Below, one piece after another: positions 1,566-15,285 of a stretch of DNA of 64,000 nt. The notes beneath the pieces are model-generated. The model was not told the DNA's origin and did not search any database. It saw only the letters and a list, made by a program, of their open reading frames with translations. The stretch covers positions 1 to 64,000 of the forward strand of contig JAIQFQ010000012.1 of the NCBI GenBank assembly GCA_020073245.1, written 5' to 3'. The DNA comes from Terriglobia bacterium. Lineage in GTDB: Bacteria > Acidobacteriota > Thermoanaerobaculia > Thermoanaerobaculales > Thermoanaerobaculaceae. The first letter of the stretch is position 1. Each line of letters opens with the position of its first letter. A program made the translations under genes and the position numbers.

Positions 1566-2798
1566 ATGAACCCAAGACACTCTCGCCTCGTGATCTGCAT
1601 GGCGCTGGCCCTGCTCTGCGGCGTTTCGGCAGTTGCCGCTCCGCCCATCGAGCTCGTTGTGTGGCACTCCTATCGTGGCGGTGAGGCGGCCGCATTCGAG
1701 AAGGTCGTGGCCGCCTACAACGCCGCGAAAGCTGGAACCGGAGTCAAGGTGACCACGCTTCCGGTACCGTACGACGCCTTTGCCGACAAGATCACTGCGG
1801 CCGTGCCGCGCGGCAAGGGACCGGACATGTTCATCTTCGCTCAGGACCGGCTGGGCGGTTGGGTGGAGGCCGGCAAGACCATCGAGCCCATAGACTTCTA
1901 CGTGGATCAGGCCACCAAGGACCGCTTCCTCACGACCACCGTTCAGGCGATGACCTATCACGGCACGATCTACGCGCTGCCCTTCAACTACAAGGTCATC
2001 ACCATGGTCTACAACAAGAAGCTCGTGACGAAGCCCCCGAAGACCACGGGCGAGCTTGTCCAGCTCGCGAAGTCGCTCACCGACGCCGGCACGGGCCGGT
2101 TTGGCGTGGCGTACTGGTACAGCAACTTCTATTACCACGCCATCCTGATGAACACCTTCGGCGGCGGCGCCTTCGACGCGTCCGGCAAGCCGATCCTCAA
2201 CTGCGACGGGAACATCAAGTCTCTCGAGCTCCTGACGAAGTGGGTGGACAAGGACAAGTTCCTCCCTGCCGAACCCTCGACCGCCCTGGTGACCGCTCTG
2301 TTCAACGACGGCAAGGCCGCGATCGTCTTCTCCGGCCCGTGGTTCCTGGGCGAGATCGCCAAGGGCATCGACGTCGGCCTCGCGCCCCTCCCGACCGTGG
2401 ACGAGGCAGGTGGCAAGCCGATGCAGCCCTGGATGACGGTGGAAGGTGTCTTCATCGCGGCGGGCTCGAAGAACAAGGACGCGGCCTACGACTTCGTGAA
2501 GTTCGTGACGGATACGCCCTCCGCGAAGATCATGGCGGTCGAAGGGCGTCAGACGCCCGCGAACAAGGCGGTCTACCTCGATCCCCAGGTCGTGAACGAT
2601 CCGACGCTCCGCGTCTTCCGGCAGCAGGTCGAGGTGGCGGTTCCAATGCCGAACCTTGCCGAGATGAGCATGATGTGGACCCCCGCAAGCTCTGCGATGG
2701 CCGCCATCGTCCAGAAGTCCGCCACGGTCAAGGATGCCCTCGACCATGCGCAGAAGGAAGTCGTGGAGGCTGTGGGGTTGCTCCGGAAGCGCCAATGA
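1566..2798 (+). CDS. malE: Maltose/maltodextrin ABC transporter substrate-binding protein
   Basis: The product is a 410-residue extracytoplasmic solute-binding protein of cluster B (MalE-like). A Sec signal peptide (RLVICMALALLCGVSAVAA) precedes the mature start PPIELVVWHSY. The GGEAAAFEKVVAAYN helix and the sequence GPDMFIFAQDRLGGW are usual family landmarks, and WTPASSAMAA near the C terminus resembles the MalE hinge helix. No lipobox Cys is seen, so it is probably a free periplasmic protein. The ATG at 1566 is chosen because GAGGAGG lies six bases before it; an in-frame GTG at 1551 would overlap the malK stop and add five residues before a poor signal sequence. The stop overlaps the malF start by four bases. 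Confidence 0.92.
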   Translation: MNPRHSRLVICMALALLCGVSAVAAPPIELVVWHSYRGGEAAAFEKVVAAYNAAKAGTGVKVTTLPVPYDAFADKITAAVPRGKGPDMFIFAQDRLGGWVEAGKTIEPIDFYVDQATKDRFLTTTVQAMTYHGTIYALPFNYKVITMVYNKKLVTKPPKTTGELVQLAKSLTDAGTGRFGVAYWYSNFYYHAILMNTFGGGAFDASGKPILNCDGNIKSLELLTKWVDKDKFLPAEPSTALVTALFNDGKAAIVFSGPWFLGEIAKGIDVGLAPLPTVDEAGGKPMQPWMTVEGVFIAAGSKNKDAAYDFVKFVTDTPSAKIMAVEGRQTPANKAVYLDPQVVNDPTLRVFRQQVEVAVPMPNLAEMSMMWTPASSAMAAIVQKSATVKDALDHAQKEVVEAVGLLRKRQ

Positions 2799-4744
2799 GC
2801 AAGGAACCATCCCACAGTCGGCGATTCGCCGCGGGCGTCGTGGCCGCGCTGGTGGTCGGCGTGGGCCTCTCGGAGTGGGTGTTGGTACGCGCTCGGACGC
2901 AGGAAAACCGCTCTCGCGCCGAGAGGGTCGCGGTGGTGGCACTCTCCGCGGTCACGGAGGTCGCCGAGCGCGCGGGCGGCGCCGGCGATTCGTTGCGCCG
3001 GGCCGTCGCCACGATCGCCGGCCAGAACCCCGGGCTGAAGGCGATCCGTGTACTCGTGCTGGACGGGCTCTCGCTCGAAGCCTCGACGGCCTCGGAGGAC
3101 CGCGGCGAGAAGGCTGCCCCGCGCAGGCTCACCCGCGACGAGAAGCCGATCTACGACCAGGCGCAGCGGCTGCGCGCGGCGGTCGAGACCAACCGCCAGG
3201 AGGGCGCCGCCCGGAAGCCCGAGATCGAGGTCGCCGGGTCTGCCGGCGGCGGGCTCTCGCTCGCCGCGCCCCTCGAGAAAGACGGGTCGGTCGTCGGGAT
3301 GGTGGCTCTCGAGACGACGGCTGTCCCCACGGCGCCACGCACGGACTGGCTCTTCCCCGTGGTGGTGGTCGCGGGCGCGGGCGCCGCTTTCTGGTTGCTG
3401 GCAGTTGTGATGGGCGAGCGGCGCGCGCTCCTCGCGTTGTTCGCATGCCTCTTGCTCATGGCCGCCATGGTCGTGATGGGGCGGCATGCCTTCACCGCGG
3501 TGAGCGGGGATCGCCGCGCGACCGAGTCCGCGGTTGCGGCGGCTGTCGGCGCGGATGAGGTGAGTGCTGCCAAGGCGCTGCCGGAGCTTGCGCCTGGCGA
3601 GGGCGCAAAGCCCGTTCACCCCGCGAACTGGGACGCGGACGTCTTCCGCCGGCCGTTGGGGGTGATCGGGGCCGACGGAAAGGTGGATGAGGCGAAGTTC
3701 GAGCAGGGTCTGGCAACAGGGTCGTCCAAGACCGCGCGGGTCGTCGGGACGTTCACGGTGGTGGCGATTGCAGTCCTCCTCTTCGTGGGCTTCGGGGCGG
3801 CCTCCCGGCTCGGGGCTACGATCAGCAAGCACCACCAGGCGTACACCTACACCTTCCCGGCGATCTTCGGCATGGTATTGCTCGTCTTCCTCCCGTTCCT
3901 CTACGGCGTCGCGCTCTCGTTCACGGGGAAGTCGCTCTACACGAGTCAGGTGCCGCTCTCCGAGATCTGGGTCGGCGTGAAGAACTTCGTGGACATCCTC
4001 GGCGACTTCCACATCGCCAAGAGCACGGTCACAGGGTTGGTCTGGAACTACCAGAACATCTACTGGACGCTGGGCGTCACGATCGTCTGGACCGTGACCA
4101 ACGTCGCATACGGCGTCGGGATGGGGCTCTTCCTCGCGCTCATCCTCAACACCAAAGGGCTGTTGCTGCGCCCGATCTATCGCGTCATCTTCGTCCTGCC
4201 GTGGGCGATGCCAAACTACATCACCGCTCTGATCTGGAAAGGGATGTTCCACCAGCAGTTCGGCGTGATCAACCAGATCATCCAGATGTTCGGAGGCACT
4301 CCCGTCTCCTGGTTCGAGAAGCCCTCGACGTCGCTGTTCGCGTGCATCGCGACCAACGCCTGGCTCTCGGTGCCGTTCATGATGGTGATCTGCCTCGGTG
4401 CGTTGCAGTCGATCTCCGCCGACCTCTACGAAGCCGCGCGGGTCGACGGCGCCACGCGATGGCAGCAGTTCCGCTCCATCACCCTGCCCTCGTTGAAGCC
4501 GGCGCTGATCCCGGCGGTCATCCTGTCGGTGATCTGGACCTTCAACATGTTCAACATCATCTACATCGTGTCCGGGGGCGATCCCGACCACTCCACCGAG
4601 ATCATGATCACCCAGGCGTACAAGTTCGCGTTCGAGCAGTACCGCTACGGCTATGCGGCGGCGTACTCGATGGTGATCTTCGCGATCCTGCTGGCGTACG
4701 GCATCTGGCAGAACAAGGTCACGAAAGCGACGGAGGGGATATGA
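2795..4744 (+). CDS. malF: Maltodextrin ABC transporter permease MalF with an N-terminal extracytoplasmic sensor-like extension
   Basis: This 649-residue inner-membrane permease is larger than typical MalF (about 300-515). The ABC permease core is at about 350-649, with the EAA loop EAARVDGATRWQQF near 546-559 that contacts MalK. The N-terminal third is unusual: a transmembrane segment (11-31), an extracytoplasmic domain (32-184) ending in GGGLSLAAPLEKDGSVVGM, two further membrane segments (185-206, 210-228), a second external loop (229-315) and another helix (316-338). The first external domain has the hydrophobic pattern of a single Cache-type sensor fold; this is inference by eye. The ATG overlaps the malE stop (ATGA), as the malG ATG overlaps its own stop, indicating translational coupling. 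Confidence 0.9.
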   Translation: MSKEPSHSRRFAAGVVAALVVGVGLSEWVLVRARTQENRSRAERVAVVALSAVTEVAERAGGAGDSLRRAVATIAGQNPGLKAIRVLVLDGLSLEASTASEDRGEKAAPRRLTRDEKPIYDQAQRLRAAVETNRQEGAARKPEIEVAGSAGGGLSLAAPLEKDGSVVGMVALETTAVPTAPRTDWLFPVVVVAGAGAAFWLLAVVMGERRALLALFACLLLMAAMVVMGRHAFTAVSGDRRATESAVAAAVGADEVSAAKALPELAPGEGAKPVHPANWDADVFRRPLGVIGADGKVDEAKFEQGLATGSSKTARVVGTFTVVAIAVLLFVGFGAASRLGATISKHHQAYTYTFPAIFGMVLLVFLPFLYGVALSFTGKSLYTSQVPLSEIWVGVKNFVDILGDFHIAKSTVTGLVWNYQNIYWTLGVTIVWTVTNVAYGVGMGLFLALILNTKGLLLRPIYRVIFVLPWAMPNYITALIWKGMFHQQFGVINQIIQMFGGTPVSWFEKPSTSLFACIATNAWLSVPFMMVICLGALQSISADLYEAARVDGATRWQQFRSITLPSLKPALIPAVILSVIWTFNMFNIIYIVSGGDPDHSTEIMITQAYKFAFEQYRYGYAAAYSMVIFAILLAYGIWQNKVTKATEGI

Positions 4745-5625
4745 GCAGGAGCCAACGCAGCGGCGAGTTCCCGCACTTTCCCCTCCACCTGATCCTCCTG
4801 GTGTACGTCGTCGTCACGTTGTACCCGTTGCTCTGGGTCTTCACGATCGGCTTCTCGGGACAGCAGAACCTCATGATCGTGGACATCCCGGCCAACGCGA
4901 CGTTCCTCGATCGACTGAGGGCGATCGTGCCGTGGCCCGCCCATCTTTCGGTCGCCAACTTCACGTCGGTGTTCACCGACCAGCCCTTCGCGCGCTGGCT
5001 CCTCAACAGCGTCGTCATCGCGCTCGCCACGACCGTCCTGGGCGTGTTCCTGGCGTGCACCTCGGCGTATGCGTTCTCGCGCTTCCGGTTCCCCGGCAGG
5101 CGCGTGGGGCTGATGTCCTTCCTCGTGTCGCAGATGTTCCCCGGAACCCTGATGATGATCCCGCTCTACATCATCATCGTCCAGGTGCTCGGGCTCGGTT
5201 CCACCTACCTGGGACTGATCCTCGTGTACTCGATCACGGCGATCCCGTTCTGCGTCTGGATGCTGAAGGGGTACTTCGACACGATCCCGAGGGAGCTCGA
5301 GGAGTCGGCGCTGATGGACGGAGCCTCGGCCGCGGTGATCTTCTACCGGATCGTGCTGCCGCTCGCGAAACCCGCCGTTGCCGTTACGGCGCTGTTCTCG
5401 TTCATGACCGCGTGGAACGAGTACATCCAGGCGGCCACTTTCATGGACAAGATCAACATGTACACCGCGCCGGTCGGGCTGAAGTTCTTCGTCGGCGGCT
5501 TCCAGCAGCAGTGGGGATACTTCGCGGCGGGCGCGATCGTCACCGCCATTCCCATCGTGGCGCTGTTCCTGTTCCTGCAGAAGTACCTGATCTCCGGCCT
5601 GACGGCCGGTGCGGTCAAGGGGTGA
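4741..5625 (+). CDS. malG: Maltodextrin ABC transporter permease MalG
   Basis: The product is a 294-residue inner-membrane permease with six predicted membrane helices, starting with FPLHLILLVYVVVTLYPLL. The EAA loop reads ELEESALMDGASAAVIFYRI, followed by VLPLAKPAVAVTALFSFM and the conserved TAWNEYIQA. MalG pairs with MalF to form the translocation pore. The length matches the MalG family. The start ATG overlaps the malF stop by four bases (ATGA), the third such overlap in this operon. No terminator is visible after the stop; 93 bases later the same strand carries the glucodextranase-C-like gene, so read-through of the transcript is likely. Confidence 0.95.
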   Translation: MSRSQRSGEFPHFPLHLILLVYVVVTLYPLLWVFTIGFSGQQNLMIVDIPANATFLDRLRAIVPWPAHLSVANFTSVFTDQPFARWLLNSVVIALATTVLGVFLACTSAYAFSRFRFPGRRVGLMSFLVSQMFPGTLMMIPLYIIIVQVLGLGSTYLGLILVYSITAIPFCVWMLKGYFDTIPRELEESALMDGASAAVIFYRIVLPLAKPAVAVTALFSFMTAWNEYIQAATFMDKINMYTAPVGLKFFVGGFQQQWGYFAAGAIVTAIPIVALFLFLQKYLISGLTAGAVKG

Positions 5626-5717: not shown

Positions 5718-6539
5718 ATGAGGCAAGCGATGCGTATCGGTTTCCTGGCGGTCGTCGCCCTCGTGGTGGTCGGGGCGGCGGCAATGGCGCAAGAGGTGAG
5801 CTTCAAGGATCCTGTCGGCGACGACAACGGCCCAGGGACATATACCTACCCCACCGATGCCGTCTACAAGCCGGGTTCTTTTGACCTCACCTCGTTCAAG
5901 ATGAAGAAGGCGGGGGACAAGTACCAGCTCGACTTCGGCGTCAACGCGACGCTCGAGGCCAAGTGCTGGTCGATGGAGTACGGGTTCTGCGTCCAGATGA
6001 TCTTCGTGTTCGTCCAGAGCGACCCCGCTACCGGCCACACCGACGGAATCCCCGGCCTGAACATCAAGTTTGCGTCAGGTTCCGGCTGGAACAAGGCGAT
6101 CATCGTGTCGCCGCAGCCGGCGAGCCGCGTCAAGGACGAGGTGGCGTTGAAGATGGCCAAGGGCTTGCAGGCCGACGTCATCGTCCCGGTGCGCGTCAAG
6201 GGCGCCGGGAGGACCATCTCCGCGTGGATCGACGCGAAGGACCTGCCTCAGGGCGATATCACGGCCTGGGGCTACCAGGTGGGCATGCAGTCGAACGAGG
6301 GCTTCCCGGCGGCGACCGATCTGCTCACCCGCAAGGTCAACGAGTACGAGGGGCAGCACCGGTTCGGCGGGGGCAACGACGGCGACTGCGACCCGCACGT
6401 GATCGACATCCTGGCCGGCAACGGGACGGGCGACAAGAGCGAGGTCGACCTCCAGCACAAGATGCTGGCCTACGAGTGCAACGCCGACGGCACGTCGAAG
6501 GCGATGGCCACGCTGACGATGGTGCACATGAAGAAGTAG
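5718..6539 (+). CDS. Secreted protein with glucodextranase C-terminal-type domain
   Basis: This 273-residue secreted protein has a signal peptide (RIGFLAVVALVVVGAAAMA) followed by VSFKDPVGDDNGPGTYTYP. That acidic Asp-x-x-Gly-Asp-Asp-x-Gly-Pro-Gly-x-Tyr-x-Tyr-Pro motif is the hallmark of the glucodextranase C-terminal binding-module family (Glucodextran_C). It then continues with SFDLTSFKM and a beta-sandwich pattern. No catalytic domain is present, so it probably binds alpha-glucan at the cell surface or in the periplasm. The ATG at 5718 follows AAAGGAGGAG with good spacing; an ATG at 5730 is a possible alternative. It sits between the Mal transporter and the outer-membrane barrel, with a second protein of the same family beyond the barrel. 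Confidence 0.8.
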   Translation: MRQAMRIGFLAVVALVVVGAAAMAQEVSFKDPVGDDNGPGTYTYPTDAVYKPGSFDLTSFKMKKAGDKYQLDFGVNATLEAKCWSMEYGFCVQMIFVFVQSDPATGHTDGIPGLNIKFASGSGWNKAIIVSPQPASRVKDEVALKMAKGLQADVIVPVRVKGAGRTISAWIDAKDLPQGDITAWGYQVGMQSNEGFPAATDLLTRKVNEYEGQHRFGGGNDGDCDPHVIDILAGNGTGDKSEVDLQHKMLAYECNADGTSKAMATLTMVHMKK

Positions 6540-6575
6540 AGGACTTGCAGCTCTTTCGTGGAAAGGAGGGAAACG

Positions 6576-8807
6576 ATGCGTGGCAAGTATCTCGTCATCG
6601 CGGTGCTGTTCGCAGCCCTCGTGGTGGTGGCGGTCGCAGCGTCCGCGGAGGAGTTCAAGCTGAACCTCACCGGGGCCGTCTACACGAAGTGGCTGTGGGG
6701 CACCGATCGCAACGACGGCTCGCTGTACAACTACACCGACGTGCCGGCCGAGTACTTCGGCGACAACGGCCAGGGATCGGAGATCGAACTGCTGGTGGAC
6801 GCGAAGATCTCGAAGGCGGTCGCGGTGCACGCCCGTATCCACAGCCGCTTCGCCCAGAACGAGTGGACCAACGCAGGGGGGTGGGGCAACCCGGGAGGCA
6901 GCAGCTATCCGATCAACAACGGAAACTGCAGCGGTGGCAGCTGCGGCGAGTTCGACCCGCGCTCCAACCAGTACGTCAAGCTGCGCGGCATGACGGTGTT
7001 CCTGACTCCGGGGTACAAGTGGCTCGACATGGCCACGATCGGCGCCAACGACTGGGGGATGTTCGACCCGTTCGTTGTGGGCCGCATCCGCTACATCGAC
7101 CGCGACAACGTGAACGGCCTCCTGTTCCAGGGCTCCGCACTCGGGAAAGCGTTGAGCTGGGACTTCGCCCGGCAGTCCTTGCCGCGCAACTGGGCCGGGC
7201 CGAACTTCTCTACCGGCACGTATGCAGCTGCTGATGGAAACTACGTGGCCCAGGTCAAGTACACGGGCGGCGCGCTATGGGACGTCGCCGGGATCGGGAG
7301 TTACACCAACGACATCGAGGTGGACGCCAGCGATCAGAACTGGAACAACGGCCGCACCGTCAAGACCCGCTTCAGGGATGAGGTCCTCGGCCTCCGGTTC
7401 GGTCTCCACCCCACCCAGATGTTCGACGTCAACGCCCAGTACTACCACTCCAGCTCGGACACGTCCGACAAGTTCCTGCCGCACGACTTCTCCGGCGTAC
7501 CGTTCGCCGGCATCGGCGGGTTCTCCCCGGTGCCGTTCGGCCCGCACGACGGCAACAGCTGGAAGGTCAACTTCGACGTCAACGACCCGTTCGGCGTGGG
7601 GCTCTCCTTCAAGGTGGAGGGGTTCGACATCGGCAAGGACTACGTTGCGTTGATGGCGGCGCGCCGTGAGGCCGACGTGCTGCTCACCGAGGGCCACGAC
7701 GGGGCGTTCGTCTTCAGCGGAGCGGCCAACAGCAGGTATCAGCCGTTCCCCAACACGAACGACTTCCCCTCGAGGTACATCATCGGGTACGCCGGGTTCA
7801 TGGGGAATGCGCAGCAGGTGGCCACGGTCAACGTGGATATCCAGTTCCAGGACTTCAACGAGCCGTGGGCCGAGACCGTGATCGGATGGAAGGGGTTCAC
7901 CCTCGCTCCGACGTACTCAACGGGACCGCTCGAGCTGTCCGCCGAGTACACGAAGATCGACTACAACACCAACTGGCAGGCGTGGGGGCACCCGGAGAAC
8001 TCGATCTGGAACCACACGTATCCCGGCGCGGAGCTCGACGGCGGTCCGGGCATCAGCCCGCTCGTGGCGTACCAGCCCTTCCAGGACAAGAACACGGACA
8101 TCTACCTGATCAAGGGGAAGTACACCGCTGACGTCGGCAAGGGGATCGATTTCTTTGCGAAGGTCAAGTGGCTCAACGAGACCGACAAGCGGCTGAACGA
8201 CGCGCGGTTCCTGCCGTACGCGGCGGGCGACTGCCCGGGCAGCGGCCAGCCGTGCGCCGGCAACCGCAACTTCTACTCCCCCGGCAACACCATGGCCGAT
8301 CTGTACTCCAACCCTTCGGTGATCACGGTCAACGGCGTGACCGGCTACCAGTGGAAGCCGTTCGACTCTCTCTCCGACGATGACCGCGACGTCAAGTACA
8401 CGATGTTCCAGGTCGGCGCCGGCTACCAGCTCGGAAGGCTCCTGTACGGCCGGTTGACGTACGAGCACTTCCAGTCCGACCTCAAGGACGGCAACACCGC
8501 GTGGCAGGCGTACAACACGGAGGAGTACGCCTCCGGCAAGCACAGCAAGAACATCGTGACGGTCCAGTTCCTCTACCCGCTGTCCGGGATCGAGTGCGGG
8601 ATCGACTACCAGTACGCGTGGGGCACGTTCGAGCCCGACTTCGGAACCGGGTTCGTCACGCAGTACGCGGATTCCTCCATCTCGCACAAGTTCCACGTCC
8701 CGGTCGGCTCTCCGGGGTTCAGCGGCCGCTACGGCGGCTGGAACCGCATGGACAAGCAGGACCTCAGCCAGCAGCACCTGAAGGCGTGGCTGAAGGTGCG
8801 GTTCTGA
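6576..8807 (+). CDS. Large outer-membrane beta-barrel protein, candidate maltodextrin porin
   Basis: The product is a 743-residue outer-membrane protein. A signal peptide (KYLVIAVLFAALVVVAVAASA) is followed by alternating amphipathic strands rich in Tyr, Trp and Asn with long polar loops. The sequence ends in HLKAWLKVRF; a C-terminal Phe with alternating hydrophobic residues is the BAM-recognition signature of barrels. It is not recognisably LamB or SusC, having neither a plug domain nor a TonB box. Position in the mal operon suggests passage of glucan oligosaccharides through the outer membrane; that role is inference. The ATG at 6576 has AAAGGAGGG eight bases before it, better than the upstream GTG at 6558. 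A strong hairpin terminator follows the stop. Confidence 0.75.
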   Translation: MRGKYLVIAVLFAALVVVAVAASAEEFKLNLTGAVYTKWLWGTDRNDGSLYNYTDVPAEYFGDNGQGSEIELLVDAKISKAVAVHARIHSRFAQNEWTNAGGWGNPGGSSYPINNGNCSGGSCGEFDPRSNQYVKLRGMTVFLTPGYKWLDMATIGANDWGMFDPFVVGRIRYIDRDNVNGLLFQGSALGKALSWDFARQSLPRNWAGPNFSTGTYAAADGNYVAQVKYTGGALWDVAGIGSYTNDIEVDASDQNWNNGRTVKTRFRDEVLGLRFGLHPTQMFDVNAQYYHSSSDTSDKFLPHDFSGVPFAGIGGFSPVPFGPHDGNSWKVNFDVNDPFGVGLSFKVEGFDIGKDYVALMAARREADVLLTEGHDGAFVFSGAANSRYQPFPNTNDFPSRYIIGYAGFMGNAQQVATVNVDIQFQDFNEPWAETVIGWKGFTLAPTYSTGPLELSAEYTKIDYNTNWQAWGHPENSIWNHTYPGAELDGGPGISPLVAYQPFQDKNTDIYLIKGKYTADVGKGIDFFAKVKWLNETDKRLNDARFLPYAAGDCPGSGQPCAGNRNFYSPGNTMADLYSNPSVITVNGVTGYQWKPFDSLSDDDRDVKYTMFQVGAGYQLGRLLYGRLTYEHFQSDLKDGNTAWQAYNTEEYASGKHSKNIVTVQFLYPLSGIECGIDYQYAWGTFEPDFGTGFVTQYADSSISHKFHVPVGSPGFSGRYGGWNRMDKQDLSQQHLKAWLKVRF

Positions 8808-8828
8808 CGCATTGCGGCGACTGGACTC

Positions 8829-8862
8829 GGGGCCCGGCTCCGCAAGGGGCCGGGCCCCTTTC
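8829..8862 (+). terminator. Rho-independent terminator after the outer-membrane barrel gene
   Basis: GGGGCCCGGC pairs perfectly with GCCGGGCCCC (8829-8838 with 8849-8858) around a ten-base loop, followed by TTTCTCT. It lies 21 bases after the barrel stop. It probably ends or attenuates the mal transport transcript before the second glucodextranase-C-like gene. Confidence 0.85.
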
Positions 8863-8946
8863 TCTCCGGGCGCTGAAGGGGGTTGCGTCTGGCGTTCGAG
8901 GTGGCGTACGTTTCAGCTCGCACTAGCGTTGGAGCTCGGAGGCGAC

Positions 8947-9942
8947 ATGCACAGGTACGGGGCAACGCGGGCACTGATCCTGGCGGCGTTGGCCGCCGCA
9001 CTCTTCATCGCGGTCGGAGCGGTCGCGCTGGCGGGCGACGGGCCGGAGGTCTTCAGGCTCGCCGATCCCCGGGGCGACGACCACGGCGACGGCTCGCTGA
9101 TCTACCCGCAGCGCGATGACATCGAAAAAGGGGAGCTGGACATCCTGTCGTTCTCGGCCTCCGCGGACAAGGCCGGCACGGTGTTCGAGGTCGTGTTCGC
9201 GAAGCCGGTCCGCAAGCCCGACCGGCGCACGATCGACGAGCTCGGTAACACGCTCGACTCCCTGGCGCGCCTCGGGTTCTACAACTTCAATGTTGATATC
9301 TACATCGATACGGACCGCATCCCGGGTTCCGGCAGCACGGTGATGTTGCCCGGCAGGCGTGCCACGATCGATCCCGCGTTCGCATGGGAGAAGGCGATCT
9401 GCCTGACCCCACGTCCCGCCCTTGCCGCCGGCGGCCTGCGGTCGCTGCTCGAGAGGCAGAGGAAGCTGGAGCTCAAGAGCCGCCAGGGCCGGGTCACCGA
9501 CGAGGACGAGAAGCAGATCGCCACCACGGTGGCCAAGGATGTGGCGGCGGACATCTTCTTCCCGACACTGGTCTGGGTGACCGGGAACCGCGTGCGCTTC
9601 TTCGTGCCGGCTTCGTTCCTCGGCGGAGTCGCCCAGGACAGCTGGGGCTATGTGGTCGCCGACTCTGTGGCGGACCTCCAGGCGAGCGTAGATCTCGGAT
9701 CGGCGCTCGGAGGGGATCCGAGGGCGCCGGCGCTGATGATCGTGCCCGTCGGAAGGGGGCGAGGGGCGGCCTTCCTTGGTGGCGGGTACGAGGACGACAA
9801 CCTCGAGCCGCCTCTGGTCGACATCATCGTGCCGACGGGCGTCAAGCAGGAGAACGTCCTGAAGGACTACGACCTGAGGGTGGATAGGCCGGTGAAGCTC
9901 CCGGGCGTCGTCCCCGCGGACCTGAAGAGCTTGAAAAAGTAG
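8947..9942 (+). CDS. Secreted protein with glucodextranase C-terminal-type domain (second copy)
   Basis: This 331-residue protein has a signal peptide (ALILAALAAALFIAVGAVALA) and the mature motif FRLADPRGDDHGDGSLIYP, matching the Asp-x-x-Gly-Asp-Asp pattern of the Glucodextran_C family and of the protein at 5718. DLARLGFYNFNVDIYIDTD-like strands and repeated aromatic strands follow. A charged helical insert (about 160-190, RQRKLELKSRQGRVTDEDEK) is absent from the shorter copy. It is likely an extracytoplasmic glucan-binding protein. The ATG at 8947 is chosen because CGGAGG lies five bases upstream and the signal peptide begins there; the frame is open further upstream across the terminator, which is not a credible coding region. 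Confidence 0.75.
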   Translation: MHRYGATRALILAALAAALFIAVGAVALAGDGPEVFRLADPRGDDHGDGSLIYPQRDDIEKGELDILSFSASADKAGTVFEVVFAKPVRKPDRRTIDELGNTLDSLARLGFYNFNVDIYIDTDRIPGSGSTVMLPGRRATIDPAFAWEKAICLTPRPALAAGGLRSLLERQRKLELKSRQGRVTDEDEKQIATTVAKDVAADIFFPTLVWVTGNRVRFFVPASFLGGVAQDSWGYVVADSVADLQASVDLGSALGGDPRAPALMIVPVGRGRGAAFLGGGYEDDNLEPPLVDIIVPTGVKQENVLKDYDLRVDRPVKLPGVVPADLKSLKK

Positions 9943-10159: not shown

Positions 10160-11830
10160 CTACTTGAGGCGCCAGATCGCGCTTGCCCGTGCGGGAAGCG
10201 ACACCCGCCACGCGGTGCCGAACGGTGAAAAGATCACGCCCGGGTCCGCGAAGACCGGTTCGAACACGGTCGTGGCCGTCCCAAACGGTCCGGCAGTCTG
10301 GAGCGAGCCGGAGATGTTATGGACGACCAGCGCGCGCTCGTCCGGCGTCGTCCGAAGGAACGACAGGACCTGGCCGCTGCCGCTGGCGAGGATCTGGAGG
10401 TCCCCGCGGCGCAGCGCCGCAGACGAGTGGCGGGCCCTGATCAACAGCCGGTACCGTGACAGCAGCGAGGACGGATCGCCCGTCTCGGCCGCGACGTTGG
10501 CGGTGTCCCTGCCCGGCGAGAACGGGAACCAGGGGCTCCCGGTCGTGAACCCGCCGCCGGCTGAGGCGTCCCACGGCATCGGCGTGCGCTTGAGCCTGTC
10601 GTCGGTGTCCGAGCTCCCGTTCGCGAGTCCGACCTCCTCGCCGTAATACATGAACGGCGTGCCGGGCAGGGTCAGCAGGATGGCGGCGGCGTTCCGCATC
10701 TTGCTCCCATCGTTGCCGAGTTGCGTCGCGAGTCGGATCTGGTCGTGGTTGGTCAGGAACGGCGCATCGGTGGCGCCAGCGGGGTAGGTCGACTGGACCT
10801 CGGCGAGCTTGCTGCCGATGACGGTCGCGTCTTGCCCATTGACGCCCTGGATAACGGCGGCTGCGAGCGGGAAGTCGAACGTCATCGGAAGCTCGTCGCC
10901 GCCGGGGACGGCCCCGGTGCTCCCGTAGTACGTGGCGATGATCGGGGTGTCGGTCCAGCTCTCCCCGACGAGCGTTGCTTCGGGCTTGACCGAACGGACC
11001 GAAAAGGAGAACTCCCGCCAGAAGGCGTGCGTTTCGGGCTGGTCGACCTGAAGCAGGCCCGGGCCGTTCTCCACGAGATGGCGGGCCGCGTCGAGCCGGA
11101 AGCCGTCGGCGCCCCGCGACAACCAGAGGCCCGCAAGCCGCTTGATCTCCGCACGCACCTCGGGGTTGCGGAAGTTGAGGTCCGGCATCCCGGCCCAGAA
11201 GACACCGTAGAACCACTGGCCATCCTTGAGGTTCTGGTGCCAGGTATCGGATCCCCCGTAGAGGTTCCACGGCTGTCGCCACCCGAGGTCGGTCGGGCTC
11301 CAGACGTACCAATCGCGCTTGGCCGCGGTCGGCGACGACGCGGCGTCCACGAACCAGGGGTGGTCCGAGCCCGTGTGGTTGATGACGTAGTCGACGATTA
11401 CCTTGATGCCCCGGCGGTGGGCCTCCTGGCACAGGGTCGCGAAATCATCGTTGCTGCCGTAGTCGGGATTGATGGTCTCGTAGTCGGTGGTGTCGTACCC
11501 GTGGTAGCTTGGCGACTTGAAGATCGGCATGAGCCAGATCGCATCCACCTTGAGGTCGGTTGTCGTGGCCGGATCGCCGGTGTTGAGGTAGTCGAGCTTT
11601 CCGATCAGCCCCTTGAGGTCCCCGGTTCCGTCCCCGTTGGAGTCGGCGAAGCTGCGCACGAACACCTCGTAGAAGACGGCGCCCTTCGACCAGTCGTTGT
11701 TCCAGAGCGGGGCCCCTCGCTGCAACACGCGCCGCACCGTGCGCGGCTGCTGGTCGGGTTGCCCGCCCGCCACAGCGACCGGGACGCCCGCGGCGAAAGG
11801 CAAAATCAGGGCAATCAGAAACCTGTGCAT
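10160..11830 (-). CDS. Secreted GH13 alpha-amylase-family enzyme
   Basis: The product is a 556-residue exported glycosidase that would cut extracellular alpha-glucans into oligosaccharides for the adjacent importer. The signal peptide is HRFLIALILPFAAGVPVAVA. All four GH13 regions are visible: DYVINH (147-152), GFRLDAAR with nucleophile Asp247, VGES with acid/base Glu290, and TNHD with Asp363. The first strand motif GAVFYEVFVRSFADSNGDG is also typical, as is a calcium-type loop near it. A domain C beta-sandwich ends the protein. The ATG at 11830 is chosen because the signal peptide starts there; the frame is open further but that part is arginine-rich and not export-like. It is divergent from the ParB-fold gene and convergent with the second glucan-binding protein. 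Confidence 0.93.
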   Translation of the reverse strand: MHRFLIALILPFAAGVPVAVAGGQPDQQPRTVRRVLQRGAPLWNNDWSKGAVFYEVFVRSFADSNGDGTGDLKGLIGKLDYLNTGDPATTTDLKVDAIWLMPIFKSPSYHGYDTTDYETINPDYGSNDDFATLCQEAHRRGIKVIVDYVINHTGSDHPWFVDAASSPTAAKRDWYVWSPTDLGWRQPWNLYGGSDTWHQNLKDGQWFYGVFWAGMPDLNFRNPEVRAEIKRLAGLWLSRGADGFRLDAARHLVENGPGLLQVDQPETHAFWREFSFSVRSVKPEATLVGESWTDTPIIATYYGSTGAVPGGDELPMTFDFPLAAAVIQGVNGQDATVIGSKLAEVQSTYPAGATDAPFLTNHDQIRLATQLGNDGSKMRNAAAILLTLPGTPFMYYGEEVGLANGSSDTDDRLKRTPMPWDASAGGGFTTGSPWFPFSPGRDTANVAAETGDPSSLLSRYRLLIRARHSSAALRRGDLQILASGSGQVLSFLRTTPDERALVVHNISGSLQTAGPFGTATTVFEPVFADPGVIFSPFGTAWRVSLPARASAIWRLK

Positions 11831-11924
11831 CAAACAGTGGCCCGCGTGAGGTGACTCGCTAGGGTATAGCATGAGAAGAATCGTACCGCGCTTTCGGCGA
11901 CCCGCAACGGTATGGAGGAGCGCG

Positions 11925-12797
11925 ATGACTCGCTTCGACGCCGCCCGTCGCGCGGCGGTCATGCAGGATCTGCTGGGGGTCCTCACGGGACGGCCCGTAG
12001 ACCTGCTGCCCTTCGATCGCGTCCGGTCCGGCCTGCGCCTCAAGCACACGGTGGACCGCGGTCACCGGGACGTTCCCCTCGAGTTGATCGTGGGAACTCT
12101 CGGGCGGGAGCGCGAGTTCAACCGCGAGTTCTTGCCACGCGAGGAGGCACTGCGGGACCGGTGGGAGGAGGTCGAGGAGCTGGCCGAGGGGCCGGCCGGC
12201 TTCCCGGCTGTGGAGCTCTACCAGGTTGGCGATACGTACTTCGTCGTCGACGGCCACCACCGGGTCTCAGTTGCGCGCTCCCTCGGGGTTTCCACCATCG
12301 AAGCCCACGTGAAGGAGTTCCTCACGCCGGTCCCGATAGGCCCCGGGGCCTCGATCGAAGAGGTAGTCCTGAGCAGCGGGTTCGCCGACTTCCTCGAAGC
12401 GACCGGGCTTGTGCCTGCCGCGCCAGATGAGTTCCGGGTCTCGGAGCCGAACGGCTACGAACGCCTGCTCGAGCACATCACCGTGCATCGCTATTACCGC
12501 GGGATCGAGAGCGGACGGGGCTCGAGCTGGGGAGAGGCCGTCGCATCGTGGTACGACACCGTCTACACACCGATCATCGCGGCGATCCGGCGCTGCGGCG
12601 TCATGGAGGGGTTCCCGGGGAGGACGGAGACGGACCTCTACCTGTTCACCATGGACCACGTGCACCACCTGCGGGAGCGCTACGCCCCCAAGCCGGTGCC
12701 GTTTCCCGTCGCGGTCCGTCACTTCAAGTTCTTCTACACGGAGGGGCGTCGCCTGTCCGGCCGGCTGCGGTCGTGGTGGCGCCGGTGGCGCTTGTGA
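11925..12797 (+). CDS. ParB/sulfiredoxin-fold protein of unknown role
   Basis: This 290-residue cytoplasmic protein contains YFVVDGHHRVSVARSLG (about 103-119), the Gly-His-x-Arg-x-x-x-Ala signature of ParB-like nucleotide-binding domains. The C-terminal half contains EHITVHRYYRGIESG and FPGRTETDLYLFTMDHVHHL, conserved-looking aromatic/histidine motifs resembling DUF4032-type proteins; this match is from memory and uncertain. It has no helix-turn-helix or segregation partner (no parA nearby), so chromosome partitioning is unlikely. The start at 11925 has GGAGGAG four bases upstream. It precedes an aldo/keto reductase and malQ on the same strand, 31 bases from the former, which suggests co-transcription with carbohydrate genes. 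Confidence 0.6.
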   Translation: MTRFDAARRAAVMQDLLGVLTGRPVDLLPFDRVRSGLRLKHTVDRGHRDVPLELIVGTLGREREFNREFLPREEALRDRWEEVEELAEGPAGFPAVELYQVGDTYFVVDGHHRVSVARSLGVSTIEAHVKEFLTPVPIGPGASIEEVVLSSGFADFLEATGLVPAAPDEFRVSEPNGYERLLEHITVHRYYRGIESGRGSSWGEAVASWYDTVYTPIIAAIRRCGVMEGFPGRTETDLYLFTMDHVHHLRERYAPKPVPFPVAVRHFKFFYTEGRRLSGRLRSWWRRWRL

Positions 12798-13785: not shown

Positions 13786-15285
13786 ATGGCCTTTGAGCGA
13801 GCCTGCGGCGTCCTGCTTCATCCGACCTGCCTGCCGGGTCCGTACGGTATCGGCGACATCGGCCCGGCCGCCCACCGCTACCTGGAGTGGCTGGCCCGGG
13901 CCGGCGCGCGTTGGTGGCAGGTGCTGCCGCTCAACCCGGCGGGACCCGGCGCCTCCCCGTACGCTGCGACTTCGACGTTCGCCGGCAGCACCGCGCTCGT
14001 GAGCCCCGAGCTGCTCCGGAGCCAGGGTCTCCTGCAGGCTTCCGACCTTTCGGTCCCGCCTGACTTCTCGCCGTTCAAGGTCGAATTCCCCCGGGTCGTG
14101 CCGTACAAGCGCGCGCTCCTGGAGCGCGCCTTCGAGCGGTTCGCGGCTCGGCCGCCGGCCGGAATCGGGGAGCGGCTCGAGGCGTTCCGAGGCCGGCACG
14201 CGGCGTGGCTGCGTGACTGGGCCCTGTTCGCCGCTCTCAAGCGTGCTGGCGCGGACGCATCGTGGTGGGAGTGGCCGGAGGAGATCGCACTCCGCCGGCC
14301 AGGAGCGCTCGGGGCGTGGGCAGCTCGGCATCAGCGTGAGTTGGCGTTCGAGGAGTTCTGCCAGTTCGTGTTCTTCGAGCAGTGGGAGGTCCTTCGCGAA
14401 CGGGCTCGCGCGCTGGGGATCGGCATCCTCGGCGACCTTCCGATCTACGTCGCCGATGACAGCGCGGAGGTGTGGGCGAACCGCGGGCTCTTCCGCCTCG
14501 ACGGGCGCGGTCGGCCGGTCGCGGTGGCCGGCGTGCCGCCGGACTACTTCAGCGAGACCGGCCAGCTCTGGGGCAACCCGCTCTACGACTGGGAGGCGCT
14601 CGAGGCGTCTGGATACGGCTGGTGGGTGGCGCGCATGCGGGCGATGTTCGAGCTGGTCGACGCGGTGCGGCTGGACCACTTTCGCGGTTTCGCGGGGTAC
14701 TGGGAAGTGCCGGCGGGAGCAAAGACCGCGGCGACCGGCCGGTGGGTGCCGGGTCCCGGGCGAAAGCTGTTCGACGCGCTCCGCGCGGCGCTGGGTGAGC
14801 GCTCGCTCGTAGCCGAGGACCTCGGCGTGATGACCGATGATGTCAAGGAACTGCGCGATTCCCTAGGGCTGCCCGGAATGGCGGTGCTGCAGTTCGCGTT
14901 CGCCCCCGCGTCGCGCAGCAAGTTCGTGCCGTACCTGCACCGCCGCAACATGGTGGTGTACACCGGGACCCACGACAACAACACCACCCTCGGATGGTTC
15001 ATGGGCGACGCCTCGCCGGCCGAGAAGGAGTTCGTGTGCCGGTATCTCGCCACGGATGGCCGCGAGATCCACTGGGACATGATCAGGGTGGCGCTCTCAT
15101 CGGTCGCGGACCTCGCGGTCGTCCCGCACCAGGACATCGCGGGGCTGGGTGCGGACTGCCGGATGAACACGCCCTCGAAGGCCGAGGGCAACTGGCGTTT
15201 CCGGCTCACGGACTGGATGCTCGGCGACGCCCTCAGGGACCGCTTCGCGGGGCTCTGTTGGCTGTACGGACGCAGCGGAAGCTAG
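13786..15285 (+). CDS. malQ: 4-alpha-glucanotransferase (amylomaltase, GH77)
   Basis: This 499-residue cytoplasmic enzyme transfers maltosyl and longer alpha-1,4-glucan segments between maltodextrins, releasing glucose. GH77 motifs are complete: GVLLHPTCLPGPYGIGD at the N terminus, LPLNPAGPGASPYA (47-60), GDLPIYVADDSAEVW, FSETGQLWGNPLYDW, nucleophile Asp297 in VRLDHFRG, acid/base Glu344 in VAEDLGV and Asp397 in THDNNT. The length is exactly that of bacterial amylomaltases. A TACCAT box at 13758 and a GGGAG site precede the ATG, so it may also have its own promoter. It completes the cytoplasmic part of the maltodextrin pathway started by MalK-E-F-G. Confidence 0.96.
   Translation: MAFERACGVLLHPTCLPGPYGIGDIGPAAHRYLEWLARAGARWWQVLPLNPAGPGASPYAATSTFAGSTALVSPELLRSQGLLQASDLSVPPDFSPFKVEFPRVVPYKRALLERAFERFAARPPAGIGERLEAFRGRHAAWLRDWALFAALKRAGADASWWEWPEEIALRRPGALGAWAARHQRELAFEEFCQFVFFEQWEVLRERARALGIGILGDLPIYVADDSAEVWANRGLFRLDGRGRPVAVAGVPPDYFSETGQLWGNPLYDWEALEASGYGWWVARMRAMFELVDAVRLDHFRGFAGYWEVPAGAKTAATGRWVPGPGRKLFDALRAALGERSLVAEDLGVMTDDVKELRDSLGLPGMAVLQFAFAPASRSKFVPYLHRRNMVVYTGTHDNNTTLGWFMGDASPAEKEFVCRYLATDGREIHWDMIRVALSSVADLAVVPHQDIAGLGADCRMNTPSKAEGNWRFRLTDWMLGDALRDRFAGLCWLYGRSGS

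Follow-up and report, generated by a model that had tools for sequence, protein, structure and literature searches.

In the malEFG and malK-lamB-malM system of Escherichia coli, the importer MalEFGK is joined in the same regulon by the sugar porin LamB, an 18-stranded trimeric barrel with a greasy slide, and the small exported protein MalM is encoded beside this porin. SusCD systems of Bacteroidota bring together an outer-membrane barrel, an exported protein of the glucan-binding type and an amylase. The locus considered here lies at the start of the analysed window, i.e., the 64,000-nucleotide stretch of contig JAIQFQ010000012.1 from position 1 to 64,000, and shares features with both. As in the maltoporin system of E. 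coli, a MalEFGK-type importer is combined with a putative outer-membrane porin and an exported protein beside it, and LamB itself was found in the slot of the barrel in related operons; unlike in E. coli, the 743-aa barrel shows no match to LamB, its partner is a Glucodextran_C protein instead of MalM, and exported amylases are part of the locus. The likeness to SusCD comprises the barrel, the exported glucan-binding-type proteins and the amylase, but both defining parts are missing, as the barrel and its contig carry no Plug domain and SusD has no match anywhere in the genome, and the operon contains an ABC importer. LamB-MalEFGK is the closer comparison. We read the locus as a maltodextrin uptake operon, in which the barrel would serve as porin in the slot of LamB, with one Glucodextran_C protein (GD1) as its partner and a second one (GD2) as partner of an amylase, and we give this reading as a whole a probability of about 0.78.

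The genes are arranged on the + strand in the order amylase end, malK, malE, malF, malG, GD1, barrel and GD2. At window position 1 the contig start truncates an exported GH13 amylase, of which the C-terminal part is left (1–427); this fragment is 75–81% identical to the C-terminus of the amylase located 5′ of malK in two related loci (L020 and L021). It is followed by genes for a malK-type ATPase (463–1554; ABC_tran and OB_MalK domains, NCBIfam PRK11650 with 503.6 bits versus a cut-off of 432), a malE-type periplasmic binding protein (1551–2798; SBP_bac_8, E 5e-37, with MalE as best NCBIfam model at E 8e-51), a malF-type permease (2795–4744; MalF model, E 2e-50) and a malG-type permease (4741–5625; MalG model, E 6e-57); all four share the strand of GD1, lie directly 5′ of it, and are separated by short gaps or overlap. 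According to the Pfam and NCBIfam matches, the MalE/F/G/K-type components of a CUT1 ABC importer are thus encoded together; since MalE, MalF and MalG stay below the NCBIfam equivalog cut-offs, we infer the substrate of the importer rather than taking it from these models. The MalF-type permease is lengthened at its N-terminus by about 200 conserved residues (window positions 2795–3480). This extension is present in 8/8 aligned operon copies and seems to contain a stretch outside the cytoplasm, flanked by membrane segments. The best Pfam hit of this extension (Csa3_N, E 0.039) is unconvincing, and a search of the PDB gave no match.

Downstream of malG follow the genes of GD1 (5718–6539), the 743-aa barrel (6576–8807) and GD2 (8947–9942, the start being placed at 8947 and not at the ORF start at 8812), each of them with a Shine-Dalgarno-like site and an N-terminus that reads as a signal peptide. 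Between the barrel and GD2 genes, a scan for terminator-like sites pointed to a G+C-rich hairpin on the + strand (8829–8858) with 13 pairs and a T-poor tail, which might lower the output of GD2 or make the upstream transcript more stable, although such sites are no more frequent in the region than expected by chance. A further exported GH13 amylase is encoded on the − strand (10160–11830; Alpha-amylase PF00128, E 2e-102) and adjoins GD2 in most relatives, and malQ for a 4-alpha-glucanotransferase lies on the + strand at 13786–15285 (GH77, E 2e-163; TIGR00217 above its cut-off). An uncharacterised ORF at 11871–12797, ParB-like by reading alone, is conserved beside the locus amylase in many relatives. 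The preliminary description of this DNA had named two exported Glucodextran_C proteins flanking a 743-residue barrel, next to malEFGK, a secreted amylase and malQ, and all of these were recovered in that order by ORF analysis, family profiles and structure prediction. Its statement that SusC/SusD, a TonB-dependent receptor and LamB are absent from the locus agrees with the profile searches: the 15 TonB-receptor Plug domains of the genome are all located on other contigs with none on the contig of the locus, and LamB, like SusD, has no match in the whole genome.

The barrel itself matched no Pfam or NCBIfam family, including the LamB profile PF02264, and sequence searches against the PDB, both as single query and as profile, retrieved no relative. 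Modelled as a monomer by AlphaFold from an alignment of 47 sequences, it is predicted to form a large outer-membrane beta-barrel (pLDDT 84, pTM 0.86), and its C-terminus (...LKVRF) is typical for outer-membrane proteins. Comparison of the model by Foldseek and VIA-align returned outer-membrane barrels in general, with OprD/Occ at a Z of about 17, AlgE at about 15, CymA and TonB receptors among the neighbours and many others close behind. The matches to OprD/Occ or AlgE (Z 14–17, rmsd 5–6 over approximately 300–340 residues) are tied with those to other barrels, so no neighbour stands out and no specific structural kinship to OprD/Occ, AlgE or CymA is claimed. With these three the barrel shares the general fold, but no sequence relation to them was found, and its length is about double that of CymA or OprD. 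Based on the generic fold, the lack of a PDB profile match and the weak Pfam hits in only a few family members, we regard the protein as a predicted outer-membrane barrel whose family the searched libraries do not name; as its structural neighbours are generic, the fold gives no substrate.

The presence of AlgE among these neighbours, with a Z of about 15, could suggest an AlgE-like exporter of glucan or another polysaccharide with GD1 as periplasmic guide. We consider this highly improbable: many other barrels match equally well, the surrounding genes encode an ABC importer, the binding protein that belongs to it and degrading enzymes, and none of the operon members was recognised as a polymerase or glycosyltransferase.

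In contrast to the barrel, both flanking proteins belong to a named family. GD1 and GD2 match PF09985 with E 3.9e-55 (187.3 bits) and E 2.8e-31 (109.2 bits), respectively, at a cut-off of 22. They resemble the C-domain of the glucodextranase of Arthrobacter globiformis (PF09985; 1ug9/1ulv) in fold and by detectable sequence similarity, but here they are exported on their own or fused to a barrel, whereas the glucodextranase domain is part of a GH15 enzyme. The structural match to 1ug9 (Z 21.6, rmsd 2.9, 219 aligned residues, 32% identity) was obtained with the homologous GD1 domain of a related fusion protein (locus L069), which stands in for GD1 of the window. Domains of this type were also found on a GH15-like protein and on proteins annotated as GH97, both families acting on alpha-glucans, and GD1 and GD2 would accordingly be glucan-binding proteins. 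The GH15-like protein is encoded by a relative (G229; L050:9797-13306) away from the operon and is a large protein with a C-terminal Glucodextran_C domain, i.e., the classic glucodextranase arrangement. The proteins annotated as GH97 that contain a GD1-like domain are encoded on plasmids of haloarchaea (H1–H4).

The association of the three genes reaches far beyond the window. Among 60 relatives, the barrel was present in seven, and the same seven each carry exactly two PF09985 genes. Within Acidobacteriota, nine of 396 genomes encode the barrel and 11 encode PF09985, with 9/9 barrel genomes among the 11; in the sampled order of Myxococcota the numbers are 34 and 42 of 117, with all 34 barrel genomes among the 42. 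The hypergeometric probabilities of this co-occurrence are 9e-17 and 3e-22, respectively, to be read with the reservation that the genomes are related and the trials are not independent. A scan of 84,980 species, with one genome per species, yielded 66 barrel loci in Acidobacteriota, Myxococcota (many of them cultured), Pseudomonadota and the candidate division CSSED10-310. GD1 lies directly 5′ of the barrel on the same strand in 59 of these and is fused to it in at least two more, while most of the remaining loci run into a contig end or hold the second fragment of a barrel that an assembly gap interrupts. GD2 follows downstream of the barrel in 50 loci, mal genes precede it in 46, and the order amylase-malK-E-F-G-GD1-barrel-GD2 is kept across phyla. 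The trio is hence conserved together in related genomes, and the conserved order and the co-occurrence support the earlier proposal of a coherent outer-membrane unit for alpha-glucan uptake, with transport as its presumed function. Mirror-tree correlations were high for all operon genes and were set aside as evidence for partnership, which they cannot tell from species history.

Some loci fit less well and count against the proposed reading. A set of divergent loci (L109–L125) has no malKEFG genes 5′ of the barrel; these are found nearby on the opposite strand in L112 and L113, and none were seen in the flanking DNA examined of the others. The gene context of L112, L115, L117 and L126 pointed to no clear substrate. 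In six divergent myxobacterial loci (L112, L113, L116, L119, L121, and L122), about 2.3–2.4 kb separate the barrel from GD2, an interval that in L112 harbours a gene for a lipobox-bearing protein with no convincing family match. The divergent barrel L126:7863-9917 has no GD1 within 8 kb and lies beside a peptidase M1 domain protein, being the sole such exception with long flanks.

The best clue to the substrate comes from genomes that encode PF09985 but lack the barrel, which are eight of the 42 in the myxobacterial order. In five of these eight (G448, G468, G471, G475, and G498), the coordinates place a LamB gene (E 7e-100 to 2e-113) immediately after GD1 and in the same orientation, and the DNA read for G471, G498 and G475 revealed the operon amylase-malK-malE-malF-malG-GD1-LamB, with Pfam E-values of 1e-99 to 2e-113 for LamB. 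The LamB in this position matches solved maltoporin by phmmer at 1e-53, and in barrel-carrying genomes of the same set LamB genes, if any, are located elsewhere. Since LamB follows GD1 directly in relatives lacking the barrel, the barrel occupies the slot of the maltoporin, and most likely represents a maltodextrin porin non-homologous to LamB by sequence and not an analogue of SusCD. In the GD1 tree, which includes two LamB-linked GD1s, these nest within the acidobacterial barrel-linked ones (supports 96/86 and 96/81), while the MalG tree gave no resolved placement for the LamB-type operons. The exchange of LamB and barrel looks like a replacement of the porin within a conserved operon, in either direction. 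Judged from gene content and order, it is the strongest evidence that the barrel may conduct maltodextrins. Two further myxobacterial loci (L132 and L133), which count against the proposed reading, have kept malKEFG and GD1 with no porin after GD1; their genomes carry LamB genes at other positions.

An alternative option would be a porin of general use, or one with another selectivity, that came to lie in the mal operon by chance and has no specificity for maltodextrins. The barrel has no sequence relation to sugar porins, and its structural neighbours include general as well as specific porins, as such a role would allow. We nevertheless consider it unlikely, given that the barrel occurs in few genomes per group, has GD1 as a neighbour in almost every case and mal genes in most, and that LamB fills the same slot in relatives. 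With regard to a possible membership in a non-carbohydrate porin family, which had been named as an argument against an uptake unit, no porin family was matched by sequence, and it is the carbohydrate porin LamB that replaces the barrel in sister operons.

The view of two capture proteins bracketing the barrel holds in that both flank it, but they do not form a symmetrical pair. L069, L102 and the genomes from which L051/L052 derive encode GD1 and the barrel as a single protein, with GD1 at the N-terminus of the barrel and a low-complexity linker in between, whereas L092, L093 and L098 join GD2 to the amylase. A simple lipobox pattern was found on GD2 in at least eight myxobacterial loci, on the downstream amylase in seven and on GD1 in three. 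Going by these fusions and the distribution of lipoboxes, GD1 goes with the porin and GD2 with the amylase, so each of these similar proteins has a partner of its own. A soluble N-terminal domain of an outer-membrane barrel is normally located on the periplasmic side. GD1 is therefore most likely periplasmic, although a long linker could in principle thread the pore. GD1 presumably touches the barrel directly; when a natural GD1-barrel fusion was folded (pTM 0.66), the linker had low confidence and GD1 was not placed on the barrel, so that no docking can be read from this model.

These data also bear on a possible location of both GD1 and GD2 at the cell surface around the barrel, where they would trap starch in the manner of SusD, SusE and SusF. 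The lipoboxes on GD2 and the adjoining amylase in several myxobacterial loci are in line with such an arrangement, as these two proteins may be anchored at the outer membrane, possibly on its outside. However, the N-terminal fusion to the barrel disfavours a SusD-like surface capture by GD1, GD1 and GD2 of the window both lack a lipobox, and the neighbour of GD1 can be LamB, which works without a surface capture protein in E. coli. Surface capture by both proteins appears improbable to us.

For the preferred maltodextrin operon with a porin in the slot of LamB, we propose the following route, with gene content, conservation, co-occurrence, the GD1-barrel and GD2-amylase fusions, the predicted barrel fold and the presence of LamB in the slot in relatives as features shown by the analysis. 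The exported amylase, aided by GD2, would cleave starch or glycogen to maltodextrins outside or at the outer membrane, and these could enter through the 743-aa barrel, acting as a passive or substrate-selective porin. GD1 would bind maltodextrin at the exit of the porin, most likely on the periplasmic side, and deliver it to MalE for import by MalFGK, before MalQ would process it in the cytoplasm. Transport of maltodextrins through the barrel is a presumed step of this route. A more far-reaching option is that barrel and GD1 constitute a new TonB-independent glucan importer, in which the periplasmic Glucodextran_C protein at the channel exit draws long maltodextrins through a wide pore by binding them and hands them to MalE. 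If this tentative and rather doubtful extension were true, oligomers larger than LamB permits would pass.

Overall, the locus represents a widely distributed but unstudied form of an established uptake route; its coherence as a unit has good support, and its function we infer. No description of the GD1-barrel-GD2 trio appeared in the papers found by a search that covered few subscription journals, nor do these papers describe how soil Acidobacteriota and predatory myxobacteria bring pieces of starch through the outer membrane where a locus has neither SusCD nor LamB. The natural swap with LamB provides a substrate hypothesis for an unnamed porin family and a role for stand-alone Glucodextran_C proteins. 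Cultured carriers, e.g., Corallococcus, Archangium, Hyalangium, Acanthopleuribacter and Algicola, make this hypothesis directly testable. Among the carriers is also a metagenome-assembled genome whose record is titled Klebsiella pneumoniae (L115); its GD1-barrel pair groups with Myxococcota, and the title probably reflects a mistake in binning or labelling.
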